A DNA stretch of 41,250 nucleotides from a virus. A program made the position numbers and the translations under genes. The notes under the pieces are model-generated. The model had not been told where the DNA came from, did no database searches, and was given only the letters and a program-made list of their open reading frames with translations. The stretch lies in the IMG/VR virus record IMGVR_UViG_3300038682_000061, positions 1 through 41,250 of that record; one strand, given 5' to 3'. Each line of letters starts with the position of its first letter. Positions within the stretch are counted from its first letter, which is position 1. Positions 18,217 to 31,824 of the stretch are shown here, in pieces.

Positions 18217-20043
18217 GTTTAACCCCAACACAAGTTTTTCACATTCTTGAACATACCAATCGTAATCAATCGGCAGTTTCCCATAATCGTTTATGTCATT
18301 ACAGACACAAACACCCCATCCAGTATTGATTCCAATCTTGCGCCATTTGGTAGGATTCTTTTTAAGTGGTGGCATGTGTTTAATCAACGGGAGGCCACCC
18401 TTAGCGATATAATATCTGGTGTTATTCTGGAGCTGGTGATCTTCACCAAGTGACAGGTAACTGCTTCTAGGTACTTTAGTTCTCAACATGAAGTCATACT
18501 TATTCTCATGTGATTCAATAGCTTCTCGGATATTTACACCATCGAGTAACGCTTTCTCAGCAACCTTCTTAACTACCAATGCTGAAGCATTTTGATGGTA
18601 ATCCACATTATACTCATAAACACCCTTACGTTTAACCTTACCGTCTTCATATACAGCGATATAGTTATTAACATCTCGGATAAACATATGAGAATACCGA
18701 GCTTCTTCCAGCTCAAGTCTTGTGAACTTCTGCCAGTTCTCACAAATCTGCTTAACTTTATCTTGGAATGACTTATGTACCTTAACAGTCAAACCATCTG
18801 TATTAATCTGGATTAGTTTCAACGAATCAATCGTCATCAACTTCTCTGCCAACATACATAATAGAAATTGACCATTGAGGGTTATCTGCATGGTGAACAA
18901 CGGGTCATAAAACACGGAGAATTTATCATTTGACGCACCATAAGTACCATTGAGGGCTAACTTAAGCATGGCGTTCTCAGCAGTCCCTTTAGCGTAGGTT
19001 TTACGCATCTCATAAACATCCTTATAAATCTTACAAAAATGTTTACCGAGATGTTCAGGGAAGAATCCATTTGCAATAGCGAGATTTGGATAATAGCTGG
19101 CAACATCCAGATCGATTACATCACCATCATCATCTGACTCAACTATCTCAGAGTCAATGGATCCGTGAATACCACCTGTACCGAAGTCAAACTGGAATCC
19201 TTTGATAGTAGCACTCAGGTCTTTAAAGACACCTTTAGTCTCTTTGAGCTTCTGCTTCTTTAACCAATCCAGAACCCTATTAAACTCAGGATGATTAAAC
19301 TCAATCTCTGGTAGAATAGCCTGACTCAGATCAATAACAGGTCTGATTGTTTGACGAGGTTGACGACCGTTTGATCCATAATCATATAACTGCATACCAT
19401 ACTTCTCTAACTCCATCTGGAAGTAACCCTTGCCAATTTTGGTGTCATTATGATTCATGAAATCACGATCATATTTTTCAGTAAGTTGTCTACGGAACTC
19501 TATTTTCTCAAGAGACTCATTATAGAATTTCTTAGTAGCTCTAACATCACCATGGAGATTATAGAACCTCAACTCATCCATTTGTTCTGAGGTTAACCGA
19601 GTACCCGGTTTAAAAGGTAAGTCAGATATGTCATCCATCTTCATGTTAAATTCAAGAGCTTTAAGGCTGGTCATACGAGCTTTGTTATCGAAGTGCCATA
19701 TTTTGAATAGGTCTAACTGTTTCACATAACGATCTGATGGGTAGACCATATGAGCAAACTTGTTCTCTGCTGTGATAATGGCGTGTGCTTTCTGGTAGAG
19801 GGTATTAGCATCCGACTTACCCATTTTAATCAGTTGGTGTAGAACAGGATAGTCGAAACCTTCATTATTGAACCCAATCATCTCAGAGTTCTGTGACCGC
19901 AACATTGTTAGAAAATCAATTAATTCCTTAGACTGATTCACACGATCACTGATCTCAAATAACCAGGTAAATGGGGCATCAACTGCTTCAACAGCTAATG
20001 TGAAACAGTTGGGATAAGTCTCAATGTCATAGATAATATTCAT
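18214..20043 (-). CDS. Family B DNA polymerase with 3'-5' exonuclease
   Basis: At 609 aa it has an exonuclease N terminus: DIET at residues 6-9 (Exo I), GFNNEGFDYPVL at 57-68 (Exo II) and YNLHGD at 161-166 (Exo III). The polymerase motifs are DLDVASYYPN at 311-320 (motif A), KLALNGTYG at 361-369 (motif B) and INTDG at 413-417 (motif C, with NTD rather than the usual DTD). A variant NTDG motif C is known from several phage family B enzymes. It is the replicative polymerase of this phage. Its start overlaps the upstream stop by 4 bases (20040-20043), and the stop overlaps the nuclease remnant. Confidence 0.9.
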   Translation of the reverse strand: MNIIYDIETYPNCFTLAVEAVDAPFTWLFEISDRVNQSKELIDFLTMLRSQNSEMIGFNNEGFDYPVLHQLIKMGKSDANTLYQKAHAIITAENKFAHMVYPSDRYVKQLDLFKIWHFDNKARMTSLKALEFNMKMDDISDLPFKPGTRLTSEQMDELRFYNLHGDVRATKKFYNESLEKIEFRRQLTEKYDRDFMNHNDTKIGKGYFQMELEKYGMQLYDYGSNGRQPRQTIRPVIDLSQAILPEIEFNHPEFNRVLDWLKKQKLKETKGVFKDLSATIKGFQFDFGTGGIHGSIDSEIVESDDDGDVIDLDVASYYPNLAIANGFFPEHLGKHFCKIYKDVYEMRKTYAKGTAENAMLKLALNGTYGASNDKFSVFYDPLFTMQITLNGQFLLCMLAEKLMTIDSLKLIQINTDGLTVKVHKSFQDKVKQICENWQKFTRLELEEARYSHMFIRDVNNYIAVYEDGKVKRKGVYEYNVDYHQNASALVVKKVAEKALLDGVNIREAIESHENKYDFMLRTKVPRSSYLSLGEDHQLQNNTRYYIAKGGLPLIKHMPPLKKNPTKWRKIGINTGWGVCVCNDINDYGKLPIDYDWYVQECEKLVLGLN

Positions 20044-20795
20044 AGATTACCTTTAATTATCTTGTTGTAATGGATAATATTGAAAGAATCCCCCATTAAT
20101 TCTTCCACAGAGAACCTACGTTCTAAGTCTTTCACTGTTTCATACCCCCTAAAACCTGGGTTATTTGTGTGCCTATCATCCCAATCAAGCATTTTTGCCC
20201 ACAACTCTGGATATTCTCGCCGGAGAGTTCGAAGCTCGCCAAGCCTTTGCAATGGACAACAAAAGCAACTTACCCTGCGAAAGTGATCGTAAAGCCCCCC
20301 CCAATCAAACCCGTGTTTTTTACAAATAGACAATGCCTGCGGTTCGTCAATGTCCCATTCGATTAATGGGTATCGCTGGTTCATGTCGCTGGCTGACTTG
20401 CTGTTTGCTCTATGCGCTTCATCTGCCGCAAAGCCGATACAAGAAACATAATTATCAACCGTCTTTAAAACTCTGCGGATAGCATTAGTTTTTTCCCGCG
20501 TACACCATCGGCGCATCGGCGAAGGCCAACTATGCCCAATGCGGTATATTTCACCGGTGTCTCTTTTTGGGACAGGCTTTTCGAGCATGAAATATTCAAA
20601 GTTTTCTTTTGGGTAAACTCTTATAATTTCAAGCCCTGTGTACCTCTCGAACTTATCCCAATGCTCCAACATCTGCGGAAATTCCCAACCGGTATCAAAT
20701 GCCACAACGGAATGAATATTTTCACCACGCTCAAGCATTTCAAGTGCCATTGCTGTTGAGTCCTTACCACCTGAGAATGAAATAATATTTTTCAT
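20040..20795 (-). CDS. PAPS reductase family (PP-loop) protein
   Basis: The PP-loop SGGKDSTAM at residues 8-16 binds ATP or an adenylylated substrate, and later Cys residues (CTREK, CFCCPLQRLGEL) resemble those of phosphoadenosine phosphosulfate reductase-like phage proteins. The classic reductase C-terminal CGIH is absent, so sulfate reduction is unlikely. In phages such proteins are often tied to DNA or tRNA sulfur chemistry or other nucleotide modification, which is unproven here. The length of 251 aa is usual. It directly precedes the polymerase with a 4-base overlap. Confidence 0.8.
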   Translation of the reverse strand: MKNIISFSGGKDSTAMALEMLERGENIHSVVAFDTGWEFPQMLEHWDKFERYTGLEIIRVYPKENFEYFMLEKPVPKRDTGEIYRIGHSWPSPMRRWCTREKTNAIRRVLKTVDNYVSCIGFAADEAHRANSKSASDMNQRYPLIEWDIDEPQALSICKKHGFDWGGLYDHFRRVSCFCCPLQRLGELRTLRREYPELWAKMLDWDDRHTNNPGFRGYETVKDLERRFSVEELMGDSFNIIHYNKIIKGNL

Positions 20796-23322: not shown

Positions 23323-23526
23323 TTACTCTCCTTCGCTAACGTTGTTGGTGAGATCGAACAGACCCATCTGTTCTTCAGTTGGAATGATCTTGACACGATC
23401 CTGTACAAATGCTTCAATTAAAGTTCTCAGCATTATACTAGGCTTGCCAAATTTGGAGGCTTTGTTATCAAAAGCATCCTTGAGTTCTGCATTAATTTTA
23501 AGATGTATTACAGTTTGTTCTGGCAT
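23323..23526 (-). CDS. Ribbon-helix-helix DNA-binding protein, 67 aa
   Basis: The N-terminal strand QTVIHLKINAELKDAF followed by two helices (KASKFGKPSIMLRTLIEAFV) is the pattern of Arc/MetJ/CopG-type regulators. It is the first gene of the long minus operon, with an operator-like dyad spanning its promoter, so it may repress itself and the operon. It lies divergent to the methyltransferase. A role in switching between early and late gene expression is plausible but unproven. Confidence 0.7.
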   Translation of the reverse strand: MPEQTVIHLKINAELKDAFDNKASKFGKPSIMLRTLIEAFVQDRVKIIPTEEQMGLFDLTNNVSEGE

Positions 23527-23579: not shown

Positions 23580-23674
23580 CACTAAATTTAAGAAAAAGTG
23601 ACTTGACGTGATTTTTTATATAATGTATTTATACTTTAAAATTAACTGAATTATGTAAACAGGAGGATTAAAGT

Positions 23675-24622
23675 GTGGATATTACCAAAGAATCACCAAC
23701 TATCGTTTCTCTTTGCTCAGGCTACGGGGGGATCGAACTCGGTCTTGGAAGAGTGTTTGGAGAACTCTCCGTCCTCGCTCATGTGGAGATCGAAGCCTTC
23801 GCAGTTGCGAACTTGGTTAACAAGATGGAAGCGGGACTTATGGCTCCAGCACCTATCTGGACGGATGTTAAAACCCTCAATGCGGGACTCTTTCGAGGAC
23901 ATGTTGACATCCTTACTGGTGGCTATCCATGCCAACCATTCAGTGCAGCAGGTAAGCGACAAGGGGCAGACGACCCACGACATCTGTGGCCTCACATCAG
24001 GACTATCATCAGAGATTGCCAACCAGAATACTGTTTCTTTGAAAACGTCGAAGGGCACATATCGCTTGGACTCTCCACAGTCATCGCCGACTTGGAAGAA
24101 GATGGTTACAGAACAACGTGGGGAATATTCTCAGCGGAAGAATGCGGCGCACCGCACAGAAGGAAACGGGTGTTCATCTTGGCCAACCGCAGCAGCGAGG
24201 GATTTCAAGGGTTGCGGCAACGCAGTAGACAGGAAAGACGGGAAGCACCGACTGGATACGCTGGAGGCTGTAGTCAAGTTTGGCCTTCACGCCCCGGACA
24301 ACCCCAACACGAATGGGAAGCCCCAAGAGTCGTGGGCAACACCAAACACAATGGACATGCTACCACCGAAAACCGGGGAAGCGTTGGCAAGGAACAAGAA
24401 AAAGGGCGGTTGTCGGAATCTTCGGGAAGACGTGAACAAGCCACCGACAACTGGCAAGTTGAATCCCCGATGGGTGGAAAGCCTGATGGGAGTTCCGATT
24501 GGCTGGACTATGCCGAGTTGTGTGACAATCGAACTGATGAACTGCGACTACTTGGAAACGGAGTAGTCCCTGCTACTGCTGAATTGGCGTGGCGAACATT
24601 ATACAAAAGGTTAAACAAATGA
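23675..24622 (+). CDS. C5 cytosine DNA methyltransferase, alpha chain
   Basis: The 315-aa product has motif I SLCSGYGGIELGLG (12-25), motif IV GGYPCQPFS (82-90, catalytic Cys86), motif VI ENV (123-125), motif VIII RRKRVFILA (162-170) and motif X GNGVVPATAELAW (294 to 306). A motif IX is not seen in this frame. The region between VIII and X is odd, rich in Arg, Gly, Ser and Gln, because a second conserved frame overlaps it. The start is GTG at 23675, 8 bases after AGGAGG. It methylates cytosine to a 5-methyl form, probably protecting phage DNA against restriction; the target is unknown. It stops in ATGA with the primase gene. Confidence 0.9.
   Translation: MDITKESPTIVSLCSGYGGIELGLGRVFGELSVLAHVEIEAFAVANLVNKMEAGLMAPAPIWTDVKTLNAGLFRGHVDILTGGYPCQPFSAAGKRQGADDPRHLWPHIRTIIRDCQPEYCFFENVEGHISLGLSTVIADLEEDGYRTTWGIFSAEECGAPHRRKRVFILANRSSEGFQGLRQRSRQERREAPTGYAGGCSQVWPSRPGQPQHEWEAPRVVGNTKHNGHATTENRGSVGKEQEKGRLSESSGRREQATDNWQVESPMGGKPDGSSDWLDYAELCDNRTDELRLLGNGVVPATAELAWRTLYKRLNK
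23901..24566 (+). CDS. Overlapping-frame methyltransferase beta chain (+1 frame of the alpha gene)
   Basis: The frame is open throughout 23673-24566; I give ATG at 23901 (MLTSLLVAIHANHSVQQ, 221 aa) as the likely start, while 23865 and 23880 are alternatives. The C-terminal half contains SSWPTAAARDFKGCG, then RLDTLEAVVKFG, and ends LNPRWVESLMGVPIGWT plus a short Cys-containing tail. The last piece resembles C5-methyltransferase motif IX, which the alpha frame lacks. This is the arrangement of M.EcoHK31I and M.EaeI, whose beta chain is encoded in another frame within alpha and supplies motif IX. No strong ribosome site is seen at the start. Expression is inferred from protein pattern, not shown. 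Confidence 0.6.
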   Translation: MLTSLLVAIHANHSVQQVSDKGQTTHDICGLTSGLSSEIANQNTVSLKTSKGTYRLDSPQSSPTWKKMVTEQRGEYSQRKNAAHRTEGNGCSSWPTAAARDFKGCGNAVDRKDGKHRLDTLEAVVKFGLHAPDNPNTNGKPQESWATPNTMDMLPPKTGEALARNKKKGGCRNLREDVNKPPTTGKLNPRWVESLMGVPIGWTMPSCVTIELMNCDYLETE

Positions 24623-29675: not shown

Positions 29676-30305
29676 ATGGAACCTGACCCAAGCAACCCAG
29701 ACAACCAGCATAACCAACATAACCCGCATGAACCACCTGAAGAGATTAAACGAGCTAAACAGCTTAACTATATGATCAACCATGGTCAGCTACCTGCTAC
29801 TTCCCCGTTACCTGATTGGTTATCTGCTCAACCGCCTGCTATCCCGCATGGTGTGGCAGCGTTAACTCGTGAGCAGCGTGAACTGATGCACATGGATTTT
29901 GGTAATATATTTAGTTATTTTCTTGAGTGTTTGGTAGAGGGTGAAAATATTTGGAAGATATTTGAGGATGACCCACGCGGTTATACGTTCTCACAATTCA
30001 TGCGATGGGTGTTTGCTGACCCTGAACGTGAGAATGCTTATAACAAAGCGGCTGAGATGAGTGCGGAGTTGTTGCAGCATGAGCTGATACCGATAGCAGA
30101 TGGTATTGATACGATAGAAGAGATTGATAGGGCTAAATTGCGAATAGCTACACGTAAGGATGTGATGGCGTATCGTAATAAGAAGAAGTATGGGAATATT
30201 AAACAGGTTGAGCAGAATATTAATATAAACGTCCAAGAGGCGATGCAGGAAGCGGAGAACAGGATAATCGAGATTAACGAGGACAACACCTATGGCGAAG
30301 AATAA
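29676..30305 (+). CDS. Terminase small subunit
   Basis: I use ATG at 29676 (MEPDPSN), 5 bases after GGAGG; upstream starts at 29622 are not supported by a ribosome site. The first 60 residues are Asn/His/Pro-rich and probably disordered. From about residue 90 the pattern is that of Sf6 gp1-like small terminases: TFSQFMRWVFADPERENAYN, then a helix leading to DRAKLRIATRKDVMAYRNKKKYG. It recognises the packaging site and starts headful cutting with the large subunit, whose gene it overlaps by 14 bases. Confidence 0.85.
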   Translation: MEPDPSNPDNQHNQHNPHEPPEEIKRAKQLNYMINHGQLPATSPLPDWLSAQPPAIPHGVAALTREQRELMHMDFGNIFSYFLECLVEGENIWKIFEDDPRGYTFSQFMRWVFADPERENAYNKAAEMSAELLQHELIPIADGIDTIEEIDRAKLRIATRKDVMAYRNKKKYGNIKQVEQNININVQEAMQEAENRIIEINEDNTYGEE

Positions 30306-31824
30306 TGGACCGAGTAGTAATGAGCAGGAGCTTATTACTAGGATATTGAGCTTCAAGTATGACCCTTTGGGGTTTGTCATGTATGCGTTTCCGTGGGGTA
30401 AAGATGGGACACCGTTGGCTAAGATTAAGGGTCCGAGGTCTTGGCAGAAGAAGGAGTTTATTCGGATTCGTGACCACTTGCGGGGTAATGTACGCCTAAT
30501 GGAGATGGGTTTACCTCCTGTCCCGTTGTACTTGGCGATTAGTTCTGGTCGTGGACCTGGTAAGTCTGCGTTTTTGGCGATGTTGAACTTATGGGTTAAG
30601 TCATGTTGGATAGGGGCGACTGGGATTATTACGGCTAATACTGAGTCGCAGTTGCGATCGAGAACAATGGCGGAGCTTGGTAAGTGGCACATACTGATGA
30701 TAAACAGCCATTGGTTTGAGAAGAACAGTATGAGTCTGCGTCCACGTAAATGGTTCAGTGACCTGATAGAGACTCAGTTGAAGATGGACACTCAGTATTA
30801 CTACATTGAGGCTCAGTCGTGGAGTGCTGACAACCCTGATGCGTTTGCTGGGGCGCACAACCAGGTTGGGATGATAGTGTCGTTTGATGAGGCATCGGGT
30901 ATTGACGATCCAATTTGGAACGTAACGGAGGGATTTTTTACAGATGTTAGTCCGTTGCGGATATGGGTGGCAATATCGAACCCTCGACGGAACACGGGAC
31001 GGTTTTTTGATTGTTTCCATAAGGACAGTGAGTTCTGGGAGCATCGTTATATTGACAGTCGAACAGTGGAGGGTGTAGATGCCGGAGTCTATCAACGGAT
31101 TGCAGACAAGTATGGTGAAGACCATGACATTACCCGTATTGAAGTTAAGGGGGAATTTCCGAGAACCGGTAGTAATCAGTTTATCAGTCGGGAAATCGTT
31201 TCGGATGCGGCAGAGAGACTTGTTGATACAGATGGGGATTATCCCCTGTTGATGGGGGTTGACGTTGCCAGGTTTGGTGATGACTCCAGTGTGATTAGGT
31301 TCCGCAGGGGTCGGGATGCCAGGTCGATACCCACTAATCGATACAAGGGTTTGAACACAATGGAGCTGGCTGATGAGGTTGCTGGCTTGATTAATGAGAT
31401 GAACCCTGATGGAATATTTGTTGATGGTGGTGGCGTAGGTGGTGGTGTTGTAGATAGGTTGAGACAACTCGGATACAAAATTATAGAGGTTCAATCGGGT
31501 GAGAAGGCGAGGGATTCTGAAAAGTATTTGAATAAGCGGGTTGAGATGTGGGGTGAAATGCGGGACTGGTTAATGTATGGCGCAATAGAAAATAATCAGA
31601 ATCTTGTTGACGACTTGACTGGACCTGAATATAATGTTGACCTACGTGGTAGATTAAAGTTAGAAACCAAGGATAATATGAAGAAGCGTGGGTTGGACAG
31701 TCCTGACGATGCTGACGCCCTTGCTCTAACTTTTGCGGTTCCAATACCAATGAGGAATAACCGATCTATGACAAATTCATATCACCAGATGCCAGCGCCA
31801 ATTAAGGTTATGGGTAAACGATAG
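30292..31824 (+). CDS. Terminase large subunit
   Basis: The ATPase N terminus has a Walker A SSGRGPGKS at residues 84-92 and a Walker B MIVSFDEAS at 194-202. The nuclease half shows GVDVARFGDDSSV near residue 320 and FVDGGGVGGGVVDRL near 376, then SPDDADALALTFA near 475, the acidic RNase-H-like set. At 510 aa it is of usual size (P22 gp2 is 499). It translocates DNA into the procapsid and cuts it by headful. A long antisense frame lies across it and is treated as spurious. Confidence 0.93.
   Translation: MAKNNGPSSNEQELITRILSFKYDPLGFVMYAFPWGKDGTPLAKIKGPRSWQKKEFIRIRDHLRGNVRLMEMGLPPVPLYLAISSGRGPGKSAFLAMLNLWVKSCWIGATGIITANTESQLRSRTMAELGKWHILMINSHWFEKNSMSLRPRKWFSDLIETQLKMDTQYYYIEAQSWSADNPDAFAGAHNQVGMIVSFDEASGIDDPIWNVTEGFFTDVSPLRIWVAISNPRRNTGRFFDCFHKDSEFWEHRYIDSRTVEGVDAGVYQRIADKYGEDHDITRIEVKGEFPRTGSNQFISREIVSDAAERLVDTDGDYPLLMGVDVARFGDDSSVIRFRRGRDARSIPTNRYKGLNTMELADEVAGLINEMNPDGIFVDGGGVGGGVVDRLRQLGYKIIEVQSGEKARDSEKYLNKRVEMWGEMRDWLMYGAIENNQNLVDDLTGPEYNVDLRGRLKLETKDNMKKRGLDSPDDADALALTFAVPIPMRNNRSMTNSYHQMPAPIKVMGKR

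Follow-up and report, generated by a model that had tools for sequence, protein, structure and literature searches.

We identified, in a 41,250-nucleotide stretch of viral DNA (IMG/VR record IMGVR_UViG_3300038682_000061; referred to here as the window), a locus that very probably encodes a heterodimeric phage DNA (cytosine-5) methyltransferase, the two chains of which would be made from the same DNA in two frames by way of one shared Shine-Dalgarno sequence (Table 1). Based on its portal, head-binding tailspike, and replication genes, the window is from a P22-like podophage. According to the mechanism that we propose, a ribosome bound at the single Shine-Dalgarno would be able to initiate at either member of an overlapping pair of start codons (GTGTG in the window; usually ATGTG), with the first start giving beta and the second, 2 bases further on, giving alpha. 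Alpha would contribute cofactor binding, catalysis (motifs I-VIII), and motif X, beta would contribute an array of target-recognition modules and motif IX, and the two would assemble into one complete enzyme that most likely protects the DNA of the phage from host restriction by methylating it. The output of the two subunits would be tied together by their dependence on a common binding site. The first-pass annotation had proposed that a single locus yields a C5 methyltransferase of two subunits, with a protein of the +1 frame contributing motif IX, and this proposal is supported by the stop codon counts, the location of motif IX, and the homologues of beta. We also consider it likely that the locus represents a widespread phage and bacterial family in which a conserved ambiguous start makes both subunits from almost fully overlapping frames, with the working half of each chain written over the extra half of the other and with a swappable module array readable in both frames.

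Table 1. Features of the predicted two-chain methyltransferase locus in the window
Feature	Coordinates	Strand	Remarks
Shine-Dalgarno AGGAGG, common to both frames	23661..23666	+	Distance to start 14 (beta GTG) and 16 (alpha GTG)
Beta subunit (predicted), 297 aa, GTG 23673 to TAG 24566	23673..24566	+	+1 frame, nearly the whole of alpha
GTGTG, overlapping start codons	23673..23677	+	Beta GTG 23673, alpha GTG 23675; ATGTG in most relatives
Alpha subunit (predicted), 315 aa, GTG 23675 to TGA 24622	23675..24622	+	C5 methyltransferase catalytic domain (motifs I-VIII) and motif X
Alpha motif I (SLCSGYGG)	23708..23731	+	
Alpha motif IV (GGYPCQPFS)	23918..23944	+	Catalytic Cys
Alpha motif VI (ENV)	24041..24049	+	
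Alpha motif VIII (HRRKR)	24155..24169	+	
Beta module 1, type T11 (WPTAAARDFKG...)	24180..24332	+	Putative target-recognition module
Beta module 2, type T0 (WATPNTMD...NLRE)	24333..24458	+	Putative target-recognition module
Beta motif IX (LNPRWVESLMGVPIGWT)	24459..24509	+	Alpha-synonymous sites almost frozen here
Alpha motif X (LRLLGNGVVPATAEL)	24542..24586	+	
ATGA, alpha stop overlapping the start of the next gene (primase/helicase)	24619..24622	+	

Motifs I, IV (PCQ), VI (ENV), and VIII of C5 methyltransferases occur in this order in alpha, within a Rossmann catalytic domain and as invariant columns, and the alpha frame of the window also contains motif X (DELRLLGNGVVPATAE). The ten C5 motifs are not all found in one chain: motif IX is missing from alpha, where neither inspection of the sequence nor a profile comparison with single-chain relatives detected it, and is present in the +1 frame, where the C terminus of beta consists of LNPRWVESLMGVPIGWT followed by 18 residues. 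In the profile comparison, for which three Mycobacterium phages, one Gordonia phage, and one Streptomyces plasmid served as the single-chain reference set, alpha aligned across motifs I-VIII (3.9e-52), and the alignment of beta was confined to motif IX (7.5e-6). Database searches with both translations, a check suggested in the first-pass annotation, matched alpha to PF00145 at 4.1e-36 over residues 9-181 only; the earlier description of alpha as having motifs I, IV, VI, VIII, and X and no motif IX was confirmed. Beta matched the public phage family phrog_1008 ("DNA methyltransferase") at 5.6e-21, and phrog_1008 was matched by 41 of the 41 aligned beta relatives. We obtained no match for beta in Pfam or NCBIfam, or in the PDB by sequence search with beta alone and as a profile, and its N-terminal half had no relative outside gene pairs of the same kind. 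The AlphaFold model of alpha was good over most of residues 1-177 and the C-terminal helix, was of low confidence at residues 178-293, and matched M.HhaI and M.HaeIII over ~170 columns only, i.e., over the catalytic half; for beta, AlphaFold gave no fold (pLDDT 52.6). These data suggest that alpha is the catalytic half and beta the target-reading half of one DNA methyltransferase that would be active as a heterodimer.

Internal stops in the +1 frame were counted in 43 non-redundant relatives (<95% nucleotide identity) and compared with shuffles using each gene's own synonymous codons, in which the alpha protein and the codon usage were kept. No stop was found, while about 330 were expected (140, 25, 61, and 104 in alpha codons 2-80, 80-125, 125-175, and 175 to the end of beta, respectively). 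In shuffles of the window alone, the probability of finding no stop in the same four regions was about 0.02, 0.74, 0.28, and 0.3, respectively; because these values are mostly non-significant, a single sequence could not have settled whether beta is real. The fourfold-degenerate third positions of alpha are second positions of beta, and these sites differed in 18-32% of comparisons in codons 1-80 and in 5% at motif IX. In the stretch where conservation of beta is loose, the values were 55% (codons 81-100) and 49% (codons 101-120), and they reached 64% past the end of beta. Codons 81-120 and 301-317 were used as within-gene controls because the next gene, which would have been a shared-neighbour control, was not found in the five relatives examined. 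Across the catalytic half, changes synonymous in both frames were enriched 2.8- to 9.2-fold over expectation depending on the region (332 pairs with 80-98.5% identity), with enrichments of 5.7-fold in codons 2-25 and 9.2-fold in codons 26-50; because the relatives share ancestry, these conservation comparisons are not independent, and we attach no single probability to them and place most weight on the stop counts, which cover many diverse lineages. Altogether, the results show that both frames are under purifying selection and that beta is selected from its first codon.

The first-pass annotation had named +1-frame stops in relatives, a complete motif IX in alpha, and beta homologues limited to DNA copies of alpha as grounds for abandoning its proposal. 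The 43 relatives lack such stops, the profile comparison places motif IX and nothing else in beta, and the homologues of beta are more than DNA copies of alpha, since the protein pattern of beta is kept where that of alpha varies and beta outlasts alpha in eight relatives, where it reaches motifs IX and X. The comparison of synonymous change in each frame, which it had also suggested, gave the same answer, with frozen fourfold sites and enriched doubly synonymous changes.

An internal control is provided by eight relatives (L045, L192, L222, L223, L238, L245, L250, and L263) in which the alpha gene is cut off no more than about 50 codons past motif VIII, and beta continues past this end through motifs IX and X. 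Across the module region, the alpha frame contains 4-25 stops per locus in the seven of these relatives that were counted and none in 43 loci with full-length alpha, for which 178 were expected with the beta protein held fixed. In the sample studied, the overlap is kept clean where alpha encodes something downstream and not otherwise. Motif X was always present on one chain or the other among the sampled loci.

The beta start codon overlaps the alpha GTG by one base in 64 of 72 loci (ATGTGG in most, GTGTGG in the window, and TTGTGG in L027) and is located 5 bases upstream of that of alpha in three more (L067, L068, and L087). In a separate scan using the beta alignment as the query, the beta start was recognisable in 71 of 80 loci, and was ATG in 68, with the alpha start 2 bases past it in 64 and 5 bases past it in 6. 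Many alphaproteobacterial loci have the same M(x)W[LI] beginning in a slightly different arrangement, in which the alpha start precedes that of beta by up to 4 bases (e.g., ATGAATGACATGG). The pattern MW[IV][LIM]P at the beta start is held while alpha codons 3-5 vary and the upstream DNA differs among relatives, and the beta start and the Trp are invariant in the 41-row alignment. Among 117 distinct dual-start sites, 73 have a Shine-Dalgarno match of at least 4 bases, and 44 (about 38%) lack one. At the 73 sites, the distance from the 16S 3' end to the beta start, using the distance-to-start metric as defined in PMC9841429, is never <12 and has a mode of 12 (25 of 73 sites), with ties in the distance search resolved towards 12. 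In E. coli, AUGUG is used in both frames at 12/14 spacing in vitro and in vivo, and GUGUG is used in both frames at 12/14 and beyond (PMC9841429). The window, with two starts two bases apart behind one Shine-Dalgarno at 14/16, falls within this permissive range. Based on the E. coli rule (PMC9841429), which may not be that of the host, the 5' start, i.e., that of beta, should be favoured at the GTGTG of the window. The selection on both frames suggests that both are translated and that both starts are used in the host. The +1 frame is open for 297 codons and includes motif IX as originally noted, but its coordinates needed correction in that beta begins 2 bases before alpha.

In the +1 frame of the window, an N-terminal region is followed by two modules resembling target recognition domains (TRDs) and then by motif IX. 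Among relatives, the segment between the catalytic half and motif IX contains 1-5 units, each about 26-65 residues long and opening with W[PA]TP or a similar sequence. The 112 units comprise 21 recurrent types and 31 single ones in varied orders and numbers: the array in the window is T11-T0, L068 has T0 before T11, and T0 is present at different array positions in 15 of the 43 relatives. Each module is also stop-free in the alpha frame. Because, within a unit type, the third position of beta differs most (0.43 versus 0.19 and 0.15), beta is the leading frame in the modules and alpha largely a stop-avoiding passenger. The place of the WPTP modules and their swapping suggest that they determine the target sequence, their likeness to TRDs being one of position and pattern only.

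We considered other explanations for the open +1 frame. Beta might be translated only from an internal start, as is the 23-kDa beta of M.EcoHK31I, in which case the open frame over the first 80 codons would be a by-product. Although internal-start relatives exist (phage fTaEco01, with a separate coding sequence 88 bases inside alpha, and phage Shelly, with its "g55 internal gene") and in-frame ATGs are also present deeper inside the beta gene of the window, constraint over the first 80 codons is, in the class to which the window belongs, as strong as over the remainder, with no stops versus 140 expected, differences of 0.18-0.32 at fourfold sites, and the 5.7- and 9.2-fold doubly synonymous enrichments in codons 2-25 and 26-50; together with the beta start and Trp that are invariant in 41 rows, this makes an exclusively internal start unlikely. 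The conserved second start and the constraint that the +1 frame shows ahead of motif VIII would be left unexplained by programmed ribosomal frameshifting that fuses alpha to the +1 frame in one long chain. Such a +1 shift after motif VIII would join a complete enzyme with motifs IX and X in the eight relatives with a shortened alpha, but their alpha genes end at different places with no shared context seen, and the common form would need two opposite shifts; we regard frameshifting as quite improbable.

Less probable still is that beta is made and conserved as something other than a methyltransferase subunit, e.g., as a regulator or an anti-restriction protein. The N-terminal half without a known relative and the structure prediction without a fold are in agreement with this possibility, which does not account for the conserved C5 motif IX being in beta and not in alpha, or for a motif X that moves between the chains yet stays present. 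Several stretches are non-significant in the window alone, as expected if the +1 frame were open by chance or codon bias; the probability of this explanation is negligible, and it is ruled out by the stop counts in 43 relatives, the substitution pattern, and the loci with a shortened alpha.

A two-chain methyltransferase read from a shared start has parallels in known systems. M.EcoHK31I is a C5 methyltransferase for YGGCCR, the second chain of which has a mass of 23 kDa, starts inside alpha, and is encoded in another frame of the same gene, with both chains being required in vitro. This enzyme already provides a precedent for a two-chain split in which beta holds motif IX: its larger chain has motifs I-VIII and X, and motif IX is found on the smaller chain alone (PMC3404938). 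The window locus has the same motif division and also encodes beta in another frame of the alpha gene, but its beta starts 2 bases before alpha, shares the ribosome-binding site, spans nearly all of alpha, and belongs to a type with a variable module array. Hence, of the M.EcoHK31I-type layout suggested in the first-pass annotation, the split into two polypeptides stands, while the nesting of beta inside alpha does not. No record named EcoHK31I was among the hits obtained.

The enzymes of phages fTaEco01, Shelly, and R23.9 (Lacticaseibacillus) similarly encode WPTP-type modules and motif IX by way of the +1 frame over alpha, and some annotators have recorded the overlap. Unlike in the window, beta of fTaEco01 and Shelly opens about 90-185 bases inside alpha, with +1 stops upstream. 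The E. coli Kagunavirus fTaEco01 has L094:1104-1928 and the internal L094:1192-1884, annotated as "putative methyltransferase," and Paenibacillus larvae phage Shelly has L100:1492-2529 and the internal L100:1676-2380, which is the gene annotated as internal. In M.AquI, alpha has motifs I-VIII and beta motifs IX-X; the eight relatives with a shortened alpha have this division, with frames that still overlap over the catalytic half, while motif X of the window, unlike in M.AquI, is on alpha. The multi-specific phage C5 methyltransferases of SPbeta and phi3T have several target-recognition domains in tandem in one enzyme, as does, putatively, the window enzyme, in which, however, a second chain bears the array and the alpha frame runs through the same DNA. 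A single Shine-Dalgarno that serves overlapping or adjoining starts, with two frames being translated, is also found at pqiA and narQ of E. coli and rnpA-rpmH of Thermus (PMC9841429). At pqiA and narQ, no role is known for the second product (PMC9841429), whereas both products here appear to be conserved subunits of one enzyme. Kohl et al. termed the use of an ambiguous start for overlapping products novel, with rnpA-rpmH as the only bacterial case known to them (PMC9841429). In the openly accessible literature (subscription literature and the original EcoHK31I paper being outside the search), we found no description of the shared ambiguous start, the near-complete overlap selected from the first codon of beta, the breadth of the family, or the dual-frame module arrays.

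Using the beta alignment as the query, we identified at least 518 related stretches in IMG/VR, and the gene-pair class is present across hundreds of viral contigs as well as among Alphaproteobacteria, Verrucomicrobiota, and Bacteroidota. A genome scan with the single beta sequence found no relative. A genome scan with the alpha alignment gave 514 hits, the best 80 of which were mostly from Alphaproteobacteria and otherwise from Verrucomicrobiota, Bacteroidota, and a small number of MAGs that were of other groups or unplaced. Among these best 80 of 514, motif IX was in alpha at none of the pattern-readable loci and in the +1 frame at most of them, and several loci missed by the pattern (Bacteroidota and Rhizobiales) have a variant motif IX in the +1 frame. 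A variant of motif X seen among relatives is DELRLLGN. Kagunavirus, Paenibacillus, and Lacticaseibacillus phages have internal-beta forms, and mycobacteriophages have single-chain ones. In a 47-row phylogeny of the catalytic domain, the deep branches were mostly weak, there was one very long branch, and no order of the single-chain, internal-beta, and shared-start forms emerged. In a Woeseia MAG homologue (L108:2090-2710 and upstream), the ATGTGG start seems to be in an altered frame arrangement.

Most of the gene annotations that we inspected lack beta. In Acinetobacter phage ABMM1 (L184) and Leptospira interrogans plasmid p2 (L186), only half of the enzyme is annotated because motif IX is in the +1 frame of a single annotated DNA methyltransferase. 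Annotation that keeps one of two overlapping genes would, in such cases, omit half of the enzyme, and probably the half that decides which sequence is methylated. To our knowledge, bacteria and double-stranded DNA phages seldom have long same-strand overlaps in which each gene yields a functional product, and two-frame initiation at AUGUG has been demonstrated mainly with reporters. If our interpretation is correct, the family would represent a natural, deeply conserved use of such initiation for two subunits of known relation, with hundreds of sequences for evolutionary analysis and the shortened-alpha relatives as internal controls.

The gene following alpha encodes a Prim-Pol/PriCT_2/DUF3987 primase-helicase, and the ATGA overlap suggests translational coupling. 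Directly upstream of the methyltransferase is a small divergent gene (23323-23526, minus strand) that by eye resembles a ribbon-helix-helix regulator and has no Pfam match. A PAPS-reductase-like gene (20040-20795, minus strand; PF01507, phrog_424) adjoins the DNA polymerase of the podophage. A second 297-codon open frame (30601-31494, minus strand), antisense to a terminase-like gene (30292-31824), is probably mechanical. No restriction gene was recognised among the neighbour genes examined. The window contains 7 YGGCCR sites and 41 GGCC sites, with 56 of the latter expected, a mild scarcity that gives no indication of the specificity of the enzyme. Over the whole window, CGCG occurs 8 times versus 33.5 expected and GATC 119 times versus 177 expected, which may reflect host restriction.
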